Shown here: piece after piece, positions 21,222-28,227 of the stretch
Numbering within the stretch: the stretch's first letter is position 1
Layout of the letters: each line of letters opens with the position of its first letter
NCBI GenBank assembly: GCA_029243485.1
Contig: JAQWRY010000086.1
Span: forward strand, 310,001-374,000
Length of the DNA stretch: 64,000 nucleotides
Reading direction: 5' to 3'
Source: Candidatus Binatia bacterium
GTDB taxonomy: Bacteria; Desulfobacterota; Binatia; UBA12015
Position numbers and translations under genes: made by a program
Notes under the pieces: generated by a model
Seen by the model: only the letters and a program-made list of their open reading frames with translations
Told to the model about the DNA's origin: nothing
Database searches by the model: none

Positions 21222-21463
21222 ACGAGTGCCGCGAAAAACGGCTGAGGTCAGGCCGAATCTGCCGCTAGAGGCCGGATCGACCGTGAGCACCGAGGCCTAC
21301 TTCGCACGCGTCAGGGGTTCACTAGAGGCCAAAGTCCCGTCGCACTGCACACTTAGTTTCTTGCATCGAGCAGACCTTAGCTTCCCTTAGCTTCGGCCTC
21401 GGAAATCGCGAGCTTCTTCAGGTGGGACCCCGGCCCACGAGCCTGAGGATTAAGCCGTGCCGG

Positions 21464-22045
21464 TCAGCGCTTCGGGAACGACTCGAGACCGATCAAGAAA
21501 AAATTCGTGTTGAGCCCCGCATTGGGGCCCTTGATCCCGGCGTTCGAAATGTGGCGGATGCGCCACGAGAGGGTCAGCGCGACCTGGTCGCTCAAAAACG
21601 TGTGGAGCCCCACGCCGACAAAGGAGGCGAACTCGAACGGCCCGGCCAGGTTGTGGCCCTGGAGGCCCGTGTACATCGCACCAACTCCGCCGATGCCGTA
21701 TGGAACAAATCGCTGCCCCGCATCGTAGTCCAACTTAAGAACGAGGGGAGCGATTCCAGCCTCAAAGGCGTCCCCCGGGGCGTCGAACACCCCGGCGATC
21801 CAGCCCTCCACGACCCATTTCAGGTTGAGGTCGTACTCGTGAAGGGGCTCGTCCACGGCGTCCGGCAGGAGCCAGGCGGCCCGACCGAACAGGGGCACCA
21901 GGAAGATGTCATCGTCCGATGGCCCGTAGCCCGAGAGCAGACCCCACTCCTGGACACCGGTCCGGTCCTCCCCGAGGGCCGGCAGCGCCCCGACCGAGGT
22001 CGCGGCAATCAAGATCGAGAGAAAGAGCCCAGAGATTCGTCGCAT
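21464..22045 (-). CDS. PagL-like lipid A deacylase / acyloxyacyl hydrolase
   Basis: 193 residues with a signal peptide (MRRISGLFLSILIAATSVGALPALG) and alternating beta strands that would form an eight-stranded outer-membrane barrel. The C-terminal segment RIRHISNAGIKGPNAGLN has the His-x-Ser arrangement of PagL catalytic sites, and the following Asn-rich stretch and the final strand FFLIGLESF fit the family. PagL removes the 3-O-acyl chain from lipid A at the outer membrane. Whether this one acts on lipid A is inferred. Its start codon is only 18 bases from that of the divergent dsbD gene, so the promoters must lie inside the opposite coding regions. Confidence 0.8.
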   Translation of the reverse strand: MRRISGLFLSILIAATSVGALPALGEDRTGVQEWGLLSGYGPSDDDIFLVPLFGRAAWLLPDAVDEPLHEYDLNLKWVVEGWIAGVFDAPGDAFEAGIAPLVLKLDYDAGQRFVPYGIGGVGAMYTGLQGHNLAGPFEFASFVGVGLHTFLSDQVALTLSWRIRHISNAGIKGPNAGLNTNFFLIGLESFPKR

Positions 22046-22063
22046 GCTAGCCTCGCCAGAAAG

Positions 22064-23914
22064 ATGAACATTCCCGAATTAACCCGAGACCCCAGGACCT
22101 GCAACCGCCCTGGCAACCGCCCTGGCAACCGCCCTGGCATCAGCCCTGGCGTCAGCGCAGGGGCCGGCTCGGCAACCGCGCTCGTGGTCTCCCTTGCCGT
22201 TCTACTCGCCGCCAGCGCGGCGCACGCGGGCCCTCCGGTCGTGAAGCTCGGCGGCCACATCGAAACCTCCGAGGCAGGGTCCGTGTCGGTTCGGGCGATC
22301 GTCGAGATCGCGTCGGGCTACCACATCAACGCGCACGTCCCCGACGAGCCGTTCCTAATCCCGACCGTCCTGACGCTGGGCGCAGACGGAATCGAGTTCG
22401 CGAAGCCCACCTACCCCGAGCCGGACTCGCAGGAATTCGAGTTCGCCCCCGACAAGCCGATGCTCGTGTACGACGGAACGATCGAGATCCTCGCCGGCGC
22501 GAGCCCGAAGCCCGACGGCCCCGTCCACGCCAAGCTCCGCTACCAGGCCTGCAACCACGAGCGATGCCTCCCGCCGACGACCGTCGAGGCCTTCCTCGGG
22601 AAGCGCAGCGCCGCCGCCGCCGGCGGGACCACGGCCCGTCTCGCCGGAACCGGTACGGACGACTCCTGGCTGTTCAGCTGGCTTCAGGGCGCGAGCCTGC
22701 CCGCCGCACTCGGCATGACGCTCCTGTTGGGCCTCACGCTGAACCTGACCCCGTGCGTCTACCCGCTGATCTCCGTCACTCTGGGCTTCTTCGGGACCCA
22801 GGCGAACGACGGCAAGAAACCCTGGCCCCTCGCGATCACCTACGTAATGGGCATCACCCTGAGCTTCGCCGCGTTGGGCGTGACGGCCTCGCTAGCCGGA
22901 GGCCTCTTCGGCGCTCCGCTCCAGCACCCGGCCGTCCTGGTGAGCCTGGCCCTCCTGCTGGGGACACTCTCGATGTCGAGCTTCGGGTTCTTCGAGCTCC
23001 GCGCCCCCAGCGCTCTCATGACCCGTTTCGGGGGCGCCTCCACCGGGCTCGGTGGGGCGTTCCTCATGGGGCTCACAATGGGGATCGTCGCGGCACCGTG
23101 CATCGGGCCGGTGGTGCTCGGGCTACTGGTCTACGTGGGGTCCGAGCGCGACGTCTGGAAGGGTTTCCTGCTGTTCTCGTCGATGGGGCTCGGTATGGGG
23201 TTGCCCTATGTTTTTCTGGCGTCGGCGGCCGGATCGCTCGACAAGCTGCCCCGCTCGGGTGAATGGCTCTCCTGGATGAACCGTCTCTTCGGCGTGCTGC
23301 TCCTGGGTATGGCTGTCTACTTCGTGTCGCCTCTTATCGGCCACGACTTCATGCAGATCTTCTTCCCTCTCTTCGTCGCCGCGGCGGCGGTCTACCTCGG
23401 CTTCCTGGAACCGTCCGGACGCAGCCTCCGTGGGTTCACGATGGGCCGGCGCCTCGCGGGCTGCGCGGCGCTCGTGTTCGCCGCCTGGATCGGGCTCTCG
23501 TCCGCGCAAGCCGGCCCGGGAATCCAGTGGCAGCCCCTCACGCCCAAGGCGCTCGGTCGGGCCCTCACGGCGCGACAGCCGGCTATCGTGGAATTCTCGG
23601 CCGAATGGTGCCTGCCGTGCGTCGAGATGGAGCACTCGACCTTCACCGACCCGAACGTGCTTCGGGATGCGCGCCGCTTCTCGATGCTGCAGGCCGACGT
23701 CACGGAATCGAGCGACGAGAACGACCACCTCCTGGAGGAATTCGGCGTTCTCGGCGTCCCCACGATCATCTTCTACGACAGCGCCGGCCACGAGGTGGAC
23801 CGGGTCGTCGGCTACGTCGACGCCCAGGAGTTCCGCACGCTCATGCGACAGGTCGGGGGCGCGTCCGCCCCGGCACCCAAACCGCTGCCGCCGAAGATCG
23901 CCGAACCCGCCTGA
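22064..23914 (+). CDS. dsbD: Thiol:disulfide interchange protein DsbD-like
   Basis: 616 residues. An unusual Asn-Arg-Pro-Gly-rich N-tail precedes the signal anchor (LVVSLAVLLAASAAHA, ending about residue 58). The DsbD alpha-like periplasmic domain follows, with its Cys pair in YQACNHERCLPP. The CcdA-like membrane domain has one Cys in NLTPCVYPL and the other in VAAPCIGPV. The C-terminal thioredoxin domain has EWCLPC. Electrons pass from thioredoxin through the membrane cysteines to periplasmic partners. The start at 22064 is the first ATG after the divergent gene. It lacks a clear SD, so a later start is possible. A 114-bp inverted-repeat element follows the stop. Confidence 0.9.
   Translation: MNIPELTRDPRTCNRPGNRPGNRPGISPGVSAGAGSATALVVSLAVLLAASAAHAGPPVVKLGGHIETSEAGSVSVRAIVEIASGYHINAHVPDEPFLIPTVLTLGADGIEFAKPTYPEPDSQEFEFAPDKPMLVYDGTIEILAGASPKPDGPVHAKLRYQACNHERCLPPTTVEAFLGKRSAAAAGGTTARLAGTGTDDSWLFSWLQGASLPAALGMTLLLGLTLNLTPCVYPLISVTLGFFGTQANDGKKPWPLAITYVMGITLSFAALGVTASLAGGLFGAPLQHPAVLVSLALLLGTLSMSSFGFFELRAPSALMTRFGGASTGLGGAFLMGLTMGIVAAPCIGPVVLGLLVYVGSERDVWKGFLLFSSMGLGMGLPYVFLASAAGSLDKLPRSGEWLSWMNRLFGVLLLGMAVYFVSPLIGHDFMQIFFPLFVAAAAVYLGFLEPSGRSLRGFTMGRRLAGCAALVFAAWIGLSSAQAGPGIQWQPLTPKALGRALTARQPAIVEFSAEWCLPCVEMEHSTFTDPNVLRDARRFSMLQADVTESSDENDHLLEEFGVLGVPTIIFYDSAGHEVDRVVGYVDAQEFRTLMRQVGGASAPAPKPLPPKIAEPA
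22102..22149 (+). repeat. 12-bp tandem repeat within the dsbD N-terminus
   Basis: Three identical copies of CAACCGCCCTGG and a fourth diverged copy (CATCAGCCCTGG). They encode NRPG-NRPG-NRPG-ISPG ahead of the signal segment. This is probably replication slippage. Confidence 0.85.
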
Positions 23915-24037: not shown

Positions 24038-24940
24038 CTAGCCCGACTCGGGAAACAGGGTCGGGATGTAGTAACCGCGAAACGGCTCGAAGTCGCCGCG
24101 GACCATGTAGGTGCACAGCGAGTGGACCTCGAAGCCGGCCTCGTACATCGCCGACAACAGGTCGTGATGCGAAGCCGGTATCAGGAGCCGCGTATCGGTT
24201 CGCAGAGGCAGGTCGCGGGTCGCGGCCTGGATGAGATCGAGCATCGTATCGAGATCGCGGGTGACCGCAGGTCCCAGCACGGCGACACCACCGCGGACGA
24301 GCCGCGCCAGACTGCCCTCGATCCCCGGCTCCCCGGCGATCAGGATGTCCCCCATCCGCAGGAAGAGGTCATGATCCTTCGGGCGATCGACCCCGACGAC
24401 CTCGCGCTCCAGGGCGACGATCGACCCGATCTCGGCCGGCGTCGCGCGACGCGTGGACGCTCGGCGGCCGACATCGGGCCGCGACCGGAAGCTCCCTCGA
24501 ACGAGGGTCTCCCGAGCCACGAAGTCCACCCGTCCGTAGAGGCAAAACGAGGTCTCGTTGAAGGCGTCCTGGATCAAGCGCAAAGAACGAACGCCCGCGT
24601 CGTCGGCGCGCGCACAGATCTCACGCATCAGCGTCAAGCCACAACCGGCCGACTGATGCGCGGGATCGATCGTGATCGGGCCTGCGCCCCCGGTCTCTCC
24701 CCGAACGTGCAGGAAGCCACTCCCGACGACACGGTCGCCGAGCACGACCACGAGGCAGTGCTCCGGGTCGAGCGAGCGATACGTCTCGGCGATGACCGCT
24801 CCCACCGCCTGGTCGGCGACGACGGGACCGAAGCCTCGTCGGCGGTACATTTCGTTGAACGCGCTGCGGAAGATCGTCGCGACGCGGGGCAAGTCTGCCG
24901 ACTCCATCGGCCGGACGCCCGCCTCAGATCCGTATGACAC
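24038..24940 (-). CDS. GNAT-family N-acetyltransferase, probably two tandem domains
   Basis: About 300 residues from the GTG at 24940, which has GGAG at a good distance and leaves a 76-bp gap to the divergent gene. A longer frame to 25027 is possible. The first half is a recognisable GNAT: VRPMESADLPRVATIFRSAF, ITIDPAHQSAGCGLTLMREI (acetyl-CoA pyrophosphate loop, the usual QxxGxG drifted to QSAGCG), and LIQDAFNETSFCLYGRVDFV. The second half (about 150 residues, ending FEVHSLCTYMVRGDF) resembles a degenerate second GNAT-like domain. The substrate is unknown. Its 3' end abuts the inverted-repeat element. Confidence 0.8.
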   Translation of the reverse strand: MSYGSEAGVRPMESADLPRVATIFRSAFNEMYRRRGFGPVVADQAVGAVIAETYRSLDPEHCLVVVLGDRVVGSGFLHVRGETGGAGPITIDPAHQSAGCGLTLMREICARADDAGVRSLRLIQDAFNETSFCLYGRVDFVARETLVRGSFRSRPDVGRRASTRRATPAEIGSIVALEREVVGVDRPKDHDLFLRMGDILIAGEPGIEGSLARLVRGGVAVLGPAVTRDLDTMLDLIQAATRDLPLRTDTRLLIPASHHDLLSAMYEAGFEVHSLCTYMVRGDFEPFRGYYIPTLFPESG

Positions 24941-25016
24941 CCGCCGCTCCGCCTGGCTCGCCCCGCACGAGTCTCCTATAGCACTTCTCGCCTGTAGCTC
25001 TGCTCGGGGGTGTGCC

Positions 25017-26672
25017 CTGCTCAGCAACTTCTATTTCCATGACGCGCGGCTGGACCTGGTGCCTACGGAGCACCTCGCGTCCGACGGCATCGACGGCGAC
25101 TTCGCCCGTGGCCTCGCAGCTCGGCCGAGCTGGTCCGAGGCGCACGTCAAGATGCTGGAACAGGGCGTCGCGCTGTATTGGACCCGCTACGACGAGCTCT
25201 CCGCGCGGGCGCCCTACCTGAGCCCGCCGCGCCTCCGGAGCCTCGGAATCGTGCTCGACGGAGCGGCGATCCGGCCGTACGCCCAGATCCTGAACGAGAG
25301 CGTCTGCAAACTGTATCTGGACGACCTGAACCCGGATCGCGGGCATCCCGAGTTCGTCGCGTACGCGCTGGCGCTGGAAGAACGGGCGGCCGAGACCGGC
25401 GAGCTGCTGCGCGCCGCCGTGCACCTCGCTCCGTGGTGGTTCGAGCGATCAGACGAGGAGTGCGCGGCGTTCGCTCACGCCGCGGACGGCTCGCAGCGGC
25501 CGGATGCGCTGCTCTACCGAGCCATCGCGGGCGCGCTCCCGTGGCTTCGTGAGGTCCGTCACAAGACCCTGCGGCCCGCGCGCAAAGGGGCGCCCTACCG
25601 GGAGATCCCCGGCACCGGGCTGCTGATTCCGCGCGCCTACGAGAGCGCCCCGGACGCGCTGATCGGCCAGGTCCAAGCCGCCGCGACGGACACGCTGCGG
25701 GCCTTCCACGCGCAGCACCGCCCACCGGCCGACGCGGCTCTCGACGGACTCGAGAAGTGGCTCCGAGACGAGCGCCCCGACCTGCTGGTGACGGACGAGA
25801 AGCGGGTCATCGTATGGGAGTCCGACCGCGCCGCGGACACGGGGGCGCTCCGGCGACGACTCGAACGGGCCGGCCCGGAAGTCGTCTCCCACCTGCGCGG
25901 CGACCTCGAGTGCATCGCCGAACACAGCCGACGTTTCACCGCCTCGGTCCGAACCCCGAACGAGCTGCCGCGGCCGGACGCCGACGCGGCGCTGGGTGGC
26001 TACACCTTTCTGCACCACGAGCGCGGTTTAATTGCGTACAATCTGGACGAGCCTGGGATCGAGCGCCTGCTCAGCCCCGGAATCCCTTACGCGCGCGCGA
26101 TGCTCGGGGCCCGCACCCTTCACGAGTGGGCCCACCTCGCGGTCGACGCGGGCTGGGTGCCGCGGTCCGTGGACTCGGCCGGATGGCTCGCCCTGCGCAA
26201 CCGGCTCGTCGCCCGGCTCACACAGACAATCGACGAACTCCCAAAGCCCGTGCGGCGGATCGTGGCACCCGACCTCGCGGAGCTCGGGCAGTACCGGCCC
26301 CCCGCGGAGAGCCTTGCCGACATCTTCGAGCGACGCCTCCCCGACTTCCAGGCGAACCTCCTCGCCACCCGGCACCAGAGCGACGTCGAGCGTGAGGCGT
26401 ACGTCCGTCAGAACATCCGGCCGCTACGAAGCGAGTTCCCTGCGGCCCAGGTTCTGAGGATGCTCGTTCGATACGTGTACGAGCTGCAGTACCTAGGCTT
26501 CAGTCAGATGGAAGACCCGCGAACGTACTTCTACGAGATGACGTGGTTCGAGGCGGACTTCTTCGACACGGGCATCCTCGACGAGTCCGCACTCGATGAG
26601 TTGTCCGCCGCCGCCGCCGCTCTGTGCCTTGCGCACCAGGTCGACGACAGCCGCTTCGTACGCACCACTTGA
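25017..26672 (+). CDS. Unrecognised HEXXH protein, possible zinc metallopeptidase
   Basis: About 551 residues, mostly helical and rich in Arg, Ala and Leu, with no signal peptide or membrane segment. At 26121-26135 it encodes LHEWAHLAVDAGW, a perfect HEXXH. A possible third ligand lies in the acidic stretch ADIFERRLPDFQ about 60 residues later. Other dense segments are LDLVPTEHLASDGIDGDF near the start, ALYRAIAGALPWLREVRHKTL-like text in the middle, and FYEMTWFEADFFD near the end. I do not recognise the family. The start is unclear: no ATG, GTG or TTG precedes the apparently conserved beginning, so a CTG at 25017 was used. A GTG at 25059 is the next in-frame option. It is divergent from the GNAT gene. 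Confidence 0.7.
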   Translation: MLSNFYFHDARLDLVPTEHLASDGIDGDFARGLAARPSWSEAHVKMLEQGVALYWTRYDELSARAPYLSPPRLRSLGIVLDGAAIRPYAQILNESVCKLYLDDLNPDRGHPEFVAYALALEERAAETGELLRAAVHLAPWWFERSDEECAAFAHAADGSQRPDALLYRAIAGALPWLREVRHKTLRPARKGAPYREIPGTGLLIPRAYESAPDALIGQVQAAATDTLRAFHAQHRPPADAALDGLEKWLRDERPDLLVTDEKRVIVWESDRAADTGALRRRLERAGPEVVSHLRGDLECIAEHSRRFTASVRTPNELPRPDADAALGGYTFLHHERGLIAYNLDEPGIERLLSPGIPYARAMLGARTLHEWAHLAVDAGWVPRSVDSAGWLALRNRLVARLTQTIDELPKPVRRIVAPDLAELGQYRPPAESLADIFERRLPDFQANLLATRHQSDVEREAYVRQNIRPLRSEFPAAQVLRMLVRYVYELQYLGFSQMEDPRTYFYEMTWFEADFFDTGILDESALDELSAAAAALCLAHQVDDSRFVRTT

Positions 26673-26704: not shown

Positions 26705-27700
26705 ATGGGCATGACCGTTTTAGGAGCTGGTTCTTGGGGCACCGCACTCGCAATCCAGCTCTGCCGCGCCGGACATTCCGTGATGCTCTGGGGGCGAGAC
26801 CCCGAACACGCGAGAGAGATGGCCGAGACGCGGGAGAACCGACGCTACCTCTCCGGCTTCCATTTGCCGCCGCCTCTCGCGCCTACCGCCGATCTCGCGC
26901 AAGCCGTCCGCTCCGCGAACGAGCTGCTCGTCGTGGCCATTCCCTCGCATGGAGTTCGCGAGGCGATGGAGGCCGCGCGGGCACACATTCACGCGGAGGC
27001 GGTTATCTGCAGCGCCGCCAAGGGGATCGAAGAGGGCACTTCCAAGCGGATGAGCGAGGTCATCGCCGAGGCGTCGGGATGCGGCGACCGGGTCTCGGTC
27101 CTGACGGGCCCGAGTTTCGCACGCGAGGTCGCCGCGGAGAGGCCCACCGCGGTGATGGCGGCCGCTGCCAACGAGGAGACCTCGCAGTTCGTGCAGCACG
27201 CGTTCGCCTCTCCGATGTTCCGGGTCTACGCCTCCGAAGACCCGGTCGGAGCCGAGGTCGGTGCGGCCGTGAAGAACGTCATCGCGATCGCAGCCGGGGT
27301 GAGTGACGGGCTGGGTCTCGGTCACAACACCCGGGCCGCGATCATCACGCGCGGACTCGCCGAGGTGAACCGCCTTGCGATCAAGCTCGGCGCGGACCCC
27401 CTGACCGTCACCGGACTCGCCGGCATGGGCGACCTCGTCCTGACGTGCACGGGCGAGCTGTCGCGGAATCGCTCTGTCGGCATCAAGCTCGGCCAGGGCG
27501 AAAAGCTGAGCGAGATCCTCGAGAGCATGAGCCAGGTCGCCGAGGGCGTTCGGAACACGATCGCCGTGGACGAACTCGCGAAATCCGCCGGGGTCGAGAT
27601 GCCCATCACGACGCAGATGCGCTGCCTACTCTTCGAGGACAAAGCCCCGCGTGAGGCGATGGTCGCGCTCATGACCAGGCAGCTGAAGCACGAGTTCTAG
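26705..27700 (+). CDS. gpsA: Glycerol-3-phosphate dehydrogenase [NAD(P)+]
   Basis: 331 residues, the family norm. The Rossmann motif GAGSWGTALA follows the start. Downstream are AKGIEEGTSKRMSEV, LTGPSFAREVA, the catalytic-lysine helix AAVKNVIAIAAGVSDGLGLG, GHNTRAAIITRGLAEV, and GLAGMGDLVLTC. It reduces dihydroxyacetone phosphate to sn-glycerol-3-P for phospholipid synthesis. Two ATGs (26705 and 26711) are possible starts, the first was kept. It follows the HEXXH gene by 32 bases on the same strand, which may be an operon. Confidence 0.96.
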   Translation: MGMTVLGAGSWGTALAIQLCRAGHSVMLWGRDPEHAREMAETRENRRYLSGFHLPPPLAPTADLAQAVRSANELLVVAIPSHGVREAMEAARAHIHAEAVICSAAKGIEEGTSKRMSEVIAEASGCGDRVSVLTGPSFAREVAAERPTAVMAAAANEETSQFVQHAFASPMFRVYASEDPVGAEVGAAVKNVIAIAAGVSDGLGLGHNTRAAIITRGLAEVNRLAIKLGADPLTVTGLAGMGDLVLTCTGELSRNRSVGIKLGQGEKLSEILESMSQVAEGVRNTIAVDELAKSAGVEMPITTQMRCLLFEDKAPREAMVALMTRQLKHEF

Positions 27701-27774
27701 CTGGGCCGGGGCCGGGGCTTCCGACCGCCCCACGCCCGATGGATTCCCTCCCCGCCGTCCGTTACCAAGCCCGG

Positions 27775-28227
27775 ATGGCGAACAAGGGAACCTGTAAGGC
27801 CGACTCCTGCGAAAAAGACGTCGAGGGGAAGGGCTACTGCAAACAGCACTACCGCCTCTGGAAGCGCGGCGACATGCCGAAGGGGCGCTACGACACCTGT
27901 GTGGCAGAGGGCTGCCACAAAAAGGTGTCGAAGAGCATGCGCTGCGAGGAGCACCAGAAGATCAAGCCCGTCGAGCCCGCGGCCAAGCCGGCGACGCCAG
28001 CTCCCGCAGTAGAGGCACCGGCAGTAGAAGCACCAGCCGCAGAGGCACCGGCCGCAGAGGCACCAGCCGCAGAAGCACCGGCCGCAGAGGCACCCGCCGC
28101 AGAAGCACCCGCCGCCGCAGAGCCGGCACCGGCGGCAAAGACCGAGGCTGCTCCCGCAGCGGAAGCGGCTCCGGCCGAACCCGAAGGGGAAGACAAGGAC
28201 AAGCCCGAGGCGCCCGCCGGGGGCTGA
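27775..28227 (+). CDS. Small Cys-rich zinc-finger-like protein with Ala-Glu-Ala-Pro repeat tail
   Basis: 150 residues from ATG 27775. An in-frame ATG at 27739 is the alternative. Residues 1-65 contain two similar Cys/His modules: CKADSCEKDVEGKGYCKQHY and, after RLWKRGDMPKG, CVAEGCHKKVSKSMRCEEH, which look like paired C-x4-C-x(n)-C-x2-H zinc sites. The remaining 85 residues are an EAPAA repeat of 15-bp units, then acidic Lys/Glu. Comparable proteins occur in myxobacteria, sometimes called vegetative proteins, with no known job. Nucleic-acid binding is a guess from the fingers. It sits between gpsA and the rpmH promoter. Confidence 0.75.
   Translation: MANKGTCKADSCEKDVEGKGYCKQHYRLWKRGDMPKGRYDTCVAEGCHKKVSKSMRCEEHQKIKPVEPAAKPATPAPAVEAPAVEAPAAEAPAAEAPAAEAPAAEAPAAEAPAAAEPAPAAKTEAAPAAEAAPAEPEGEDKDKPEAPAGG
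27999..28128 (+). repeat. 15-bp tandem repeat coding for Ala/Val-Glu-Ala-Pro-Ala units
   Basis: About eight copies of a unit close to GCAGAGGCACCGGCC. The wobble bases differ between copies, so the repeat is not brand new. It lies wholly in the reading frame of the zinc-finger-like gene. Confidence 0.8.

Follow-up and report, generated by a model that had tools for sequence, protein, structure and literature searches.

A non-standard start codon is expected in infC (IF3). Among enzymes with an HEXXH motif, those that depend on 2-oxoglutarate have a fold described as zincin-like (PMC12636437). For DUF1501 and DUF1800 the papers that we found contain no demonstrated function for either, and the partner reported for them elsewhere is chitin synthase (PMC5122149). 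The gene analysed here is related to each of these systems in part. It lies in the window, a 64,000-nucleotide stretch of the genome of a Candidatus Binatia bacterium (contig JAQWRY010000086.1, positions 310,001 to 374,000), whose relevant features are collected in Table 1.

An HEXXH family restricted to one class

The ORF is intact and encodes a protein with LHEWAHLAVDAGW (H369, E370, H373), in agreement with the initial annotation, which had described a 551-residue HEXXH protein. It is not a chance ORF, because 28 further genomes of the window's class carry homologues that align over its whole length at 31–65% identity. A whole-genome search found the family in 29 of the 148 genomes of this class. 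When 297 genomes were sampled from the whole phylum, only two were carriers, both of this class, and none of those sampled from elsewhere in the phylum had the family. No relatives were found in plasmid or viral collections, and the public records of five relatives are those of MAGs. The early impression that the protein fits no recognised family is borne out: it has no Pfam or NCBIfam match, even at E 10, and the family has no PDB sequence match, nothing usable in PHROGs and no significant Foldseek match, apart from stray matches such as the one to SolJ (E 0.0013 in three members). These proteins are a real, previously unnamed family of probable metal-dependent enzymes from one group of uncultured bacteria.

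The two histidines and the glutamate of the motif are invariant in all 27 aligned members and in 29 of 29 members overall. W371, R57 and the RPDA stretch at residues 161–164 are equally invariant in the 27-row alignment, as is the C-terminal cluster, in which D443, E458, E460 and E489 are candidate Glu/Asp third ligands of the gluzincin type. In the AlphaFold2 model (pTM 0.90) the motif sits on a single helix with a pLDDT of about 97, with two β hairpins before it, and the C-terminal part that comes after it is helical. Both histidines are therefore conserved and predicted to be on one helix, so that the model does not show the arrangement that the initial annotation had named as a refutation. 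The gluzincin-type site proposed at first is a possible reading; the matches to zincins are weak and none of the fold matches is significant. Foldseek against the PDB and viral models gave no match at E 0.001, either for the full-length model or for residues 207–551 alone, with the best E-values at 0.22–0.45. In a second look with VIA-align the top match of the whole model was Zmp1 (Z 4.5, rmsd 6.0, 183 residues aligned) and that of domain 207–551 was 4l7a (Z 3.9, rmsd 5.0, 176 aligned). These weak matches are enriched in zincins: over the HEXXH-bearing domain they include members of different, unrelated zincin families (M13 Zmp1, M4, M34, M48, M1 and 4l7a) at Z 2.6–4.5, all of them below Z 5, and such values can also be reached by unrelated helical proteins. 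A zincin reading, based on the motif together with these weak structural matches, is plausible.

The divergent arrangement with a GNAT-type enzyme, pointed out from the sequence, holds with a Pfam match for the latter. In the window's lineage the HEXXH gene has moved to a position between DsbD with the divergent GNAT gene on one side and gpsA on the other. This DsbD/GNAT/HEXXH/gpsA synteny is kept in genera g1, g2 and g6, and in g3 it is found without GNAT. Beyond gpsA, the gene at 27739–28227 (+) encodes a small protein without a Pfam match, which has a pair of short Cys/His clusters and a long tail of APAAE repeats.

Table 1. Features around the HEXXH gene, in window coordinates.
Feature	Position	Strand	Basis
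DsbD-type thiol:disulfide interchange gene, start provisional	21422..23914	+	PF02683; synteny
GNAT-type gene, divergent from HEXXH gene; start GTG 24940 or ATG 24907	24038..24940	-	PF00583, E 5e-8; synteny in g1, g2, g6
TATAGC, -10-like element conserved as TCCTATAnCA in each of the four congeners; lies between GNAT and CTG start	24977..24982	+	alignment A3
Shine-Dalgarno-like GGGGG (GGAGG in G103, G104), 6 nt before CTG	25006..25010	+	congener alignment
CTG start codon	25017..25019	+	aligned with ATG of congener G102, CTG of G103 and G104; codon-like substitution begins here
HEXXH-family gene, 551 codons + stop	25017..26672	+	ORF; 29-genome family; AlphaFold2 model, pLDDT 94.1
HEWAH, the HEXXH motif (H369, E370, H373), predicted helix 359–377	26121..26135	+	invariant in alignment A1; DSSP of model
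C-terminal invariant cluster R440, D443, N447, E458, E460, Y462, N466, R485, E489 (nine polar residues)	26334..26486	+	27-row alignment; contains candidate third ligands
gpsA, 32 nt downstream of HEXXH gene	26705..27700	+	PF07479/PF01210; HEXXH-gpsA order kept in g1, g2, g3, g6

The CTG start and the recurrent loss of standard start codons

The initial annotation had found no ATG, GTG or TTG at the apparent N-terminus and had left a choice between a CTG start and an N-terminal frameshift. The reading frame is open upstream to 24672, and over this distance the only in-frame standard codons are GTG at codon −115, ATG at −75 and TTG at −54, while the first one downstream is GTG at codon 15 (25059). 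An alignment of homologues, which had been suggested as a way to fix the start, places it at CTG 25017 when the four congeners are compared, as three of the four carry CTG at this codon (the window, G103 and G104) and G102 carries ATG. Homologues in the family begin with MLxxFYFxDPRxxLVPIEHL. Relative to G103 and G104, the window has a 16-nt insertion downstream of the TATA element and upstream of the Shine-Dalgarno-like sequence. Substitutions among the four congeners number 14/3/32 at codon positions 1/2/3 over codons 5–15, compared to 34/20/19 in the leader upstream of the CTG; this bias towards the third position after the CTG, absent from the leader, indicates that coding begins there. 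As judged by comparison of sequences, then, CTG 25017 is the start of the HEXXH gene. A consensus promoter scan of this region gave nothing over threshold, despite TATAGC, and the terminator scan was also empty; RNA folding of the start region revealed no structure beyond that of shuffled sequences and so no evidence of a start-hiding hairpin.

That the true N-terminus lies elsewhere, at an upstream standard codon, at the GTG of codon 15 or behind a frameshift, is very improbable, even though the frame is open and that GTG is available. The upstream codons all fall inside the antisense GNAT gene and ahead of the conserved TATA element, in a leader without a codon pattern. The GTG at codon 15 is missing in G103 and G104 and the residues that precede it are conserved, while an out-of-frame GTG within the Shine-Dalgarno-like sequence is missing from G102. 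An upstream start, the codon-15 GTG and a frameshift were all rejected on account of the GNAT overlap, the leader pattern, the absence of the GTG in two congeners and the conserved residues, and with a supported CTG start the frameshift is needless.

Missing standard starts recur in the family. Eight of 28 HEXXH genes, from six genera, have none; six of these come from an automatic scan to 40 codons upstream, to which we added G104 and G103, where the only upstream standard codons (−32 and −28) precede the TATA element. A CTG is found at the aligned start, or at most two codons from it, with no standard codon nearby, in G058 (L016), G097 (L028) and G099 (L033), and in G099 it overlaps the stop codon of the DUF1501 gene as CTGA. 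In G070 (L019) no start can be recognised, and the gene of G064 (L030) lacks one and is also frame-broken. Broken members are two in all: in G064 (L030/L098) the frame changes just past the HEXXH region, and in G071 (L034) there is an internal stop; relatives have intact copies. As controls from the same class, gpsA (0 of 30), DUF1501 (0 of 18) and DUF1800 (0 of 15) never lack a standard start, and the difference between 8/28 and 0/63 is significant (Fisher p 4e-5, or 1e-3 when the window's genus is counted once and the two broken genes are dropped). The positive control, infC from the same class (L099–L128), has ATA, ATT or ATC in the start region, differing by family, and in many genomes of the class no usable standard codon.

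In vitro, initiation complexes formed on CUG have a lower stability than those on AUG, GUG or UUG (PMC11497404), and a low level of the HEXXH protein is expected for this reason. In the functional reading proposed below, the weak start would keep the protein scarce; it counts against that reading that initiation at CTG may be so inefficient as to yield little of it. There is, however, close to an even chance that the standard starts were lost by neutral drift, CTG being tolerated where little protein is needed and carrying no regulatory meaning. The losses are scattered, close relatives retain ATG (G102) or GTG (L024), and the two broken genes (L030 and L034) suggest that constraint is loose in places. 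Against drift, CTG and the Shine-Dalgarno-like sequence are retained in three congeners despite proteins that differ by 35–41% from that of the window, and none of the 63 control genes has suffered a loss of this kind.

Linkage to DUF1501 and DUF1800

In 15 genomes the HEXXH gene immediately follows a DUF1501 gene of the same strand, and in four more the two are adjacent and convergent, which makes 19 adjacent cases in total. In the operon, the gene for a Sec-signal protein bearing a CX4CH motif precedes DUF1800, which is followed by DUF1501 with a Tat signal and then by HEXXH; the DUF1501 protein ends in NFDLGFLP or a similar sequence. A full-length DUF1501 of this type, defined at 250 bits or more, is present in 29 of 29 carriers of the HEXXH family versus 7 of 119 other genomes (p 2e-24, ignoring phylogeny). 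On this comparison of genomes, the HEXXH family is linked to one DUF1501 type. In the genus of the window itself, in g2, g3 and g6 and in G078 the HEXXH gene has lost this operon linkage, which counts against the functional reading proposed below; the window's genome still carries DUF1501 and DUF1800 at other loci.

Several features of the partners are worth recording in their own right. One DUF1501 copy in the window's genome (G000:C1:316778-318169) is interrupted by an in-frame TAA. In genus g39 (G071, G072 and G073; L061, L062 and L064) a convergent HEXXH gene lies next to two DUF1800/DUF1501 pairs arranged in tandem. The motif of the Sec-signal partner (L049:3549-4520 and relatives), QSCAVSGCH, is unusual, and this protein has no Pfam or NCBIfam match; the motif is possibly a variant haem site.

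Possible function and relation to known systems

What could such a protein do? We propose, tentatively and at somewhat less than even probability, that it is a cytosolic zincin-like metallohydrolase of a new lineage-restricted family, most likely a peptidase, which serves the DUF1501/DUF1800/CX4CH module and is weakly translated from CTG. It would work together with the Tat-signal DUF1501, the DUF1800 and the Sec-signal CX4CH proteins, and its likeliest role would be to process the DUF1501/DUF1800 partners, or to control their quality, in the cytosol ahead of their export, since the HEXXH protein has no export signal and the partners are either exported or made in the cytosol. Translation would be aided by the Shine-Dalgarno-like sequence and, in one relative, by the stop-codon overlap. 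Metal binding, catalysis, what the enzyme would act on and why its start is weak are what we infer here.

An assembly or maturation factor for the Tat-exported DUF1501, handling a metal or cofactor or acting as a chaperone, would use the HEXXH site for binding metal and not for hydrolysis. A cytosolic protein encoded alongside a Tat-signal partner would suit such a role, as would the large conserved N-terminal domain, which has the invariant RPDA stretch and belongs to no known family, and the lack of a clear protease fold match. We nevertheless consider it rather unlikely, as the putative catalytic Glu370 is invariant, a constraint not expected of a site that only carries metal. An Fe(II)/2-oxoglutarate oxygenase of the HEXXH type (as ChlB, PflC and PosC), hydroxylating or cleaving a partner protein, would share the zincin-like core and the motif with those enzymes (PMC12636437), and 2-oxoglutarate could be bound by Arg440 and Arg485, both of which are invariant. 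This is quite improbable, however, because none of the 27 members has an NCBIfam match of that type at E 10, the 8s5f structural match spans model residues 2–221, outside the HEXXH helix, and no RiPP genes are found nearby. The most far-reaching reading is improbable: a new metalloenzyme class with its own fold would mature a Tat-exported DUF1501/DUF1800 complex, selection favouring non-canonical starts would keep its level low, and it would be, beside infC, the second bacterial gene family in which non-AUG starts recur.

For DUF1501 and DUF1800, widespread families without a known function, the family would supply an intracellular partner with a putative active site that can be tested. Because members of the family have CTG, GTG or ATG at the same conserved start position, where these codons can be compared, the natural use of poor starts in bacteria also becomes testable. 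Annotation pipelines restricted to ATG, GTG and TTG will overlook such HEXXH genes or give them a wrong start.

Compared to known systems, the family resembles gluzincin-like zincins (M13 Zmp1, M4, M34 and M48) in the model, where the HEXXH helix likewise follows β hairpins and leads into a helical C-terminal part, but differs from them in having no sequence match, structural Z-scores all below 5, third ligands that are candidates only and a large N-terminal domain of its own. With the 2-oxoglutarate HEXXH enzymes (IPR026337; ChlB, PflC and PosC) it has the motif in common, and possibly the fold, which in those enzymes is described as zincin-like (PMC12636437), whereas it lacks a profile match and a RiPP context, and its HEXXH region is not aligned. 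The DUF1501/DUF1800 gene pair is the usual genomic partner of the family, to which the HEXXH protein adds a third or fourth component of its own, one that is not exported and is present only with one DUF1501 type. Similarly to infC, this is a conserved gene that recurrently goes without ATG, GTG or TTG; in contrast to infC, it uses CTG, the type of start varies among relatives, and it has no link to the translation machinery.
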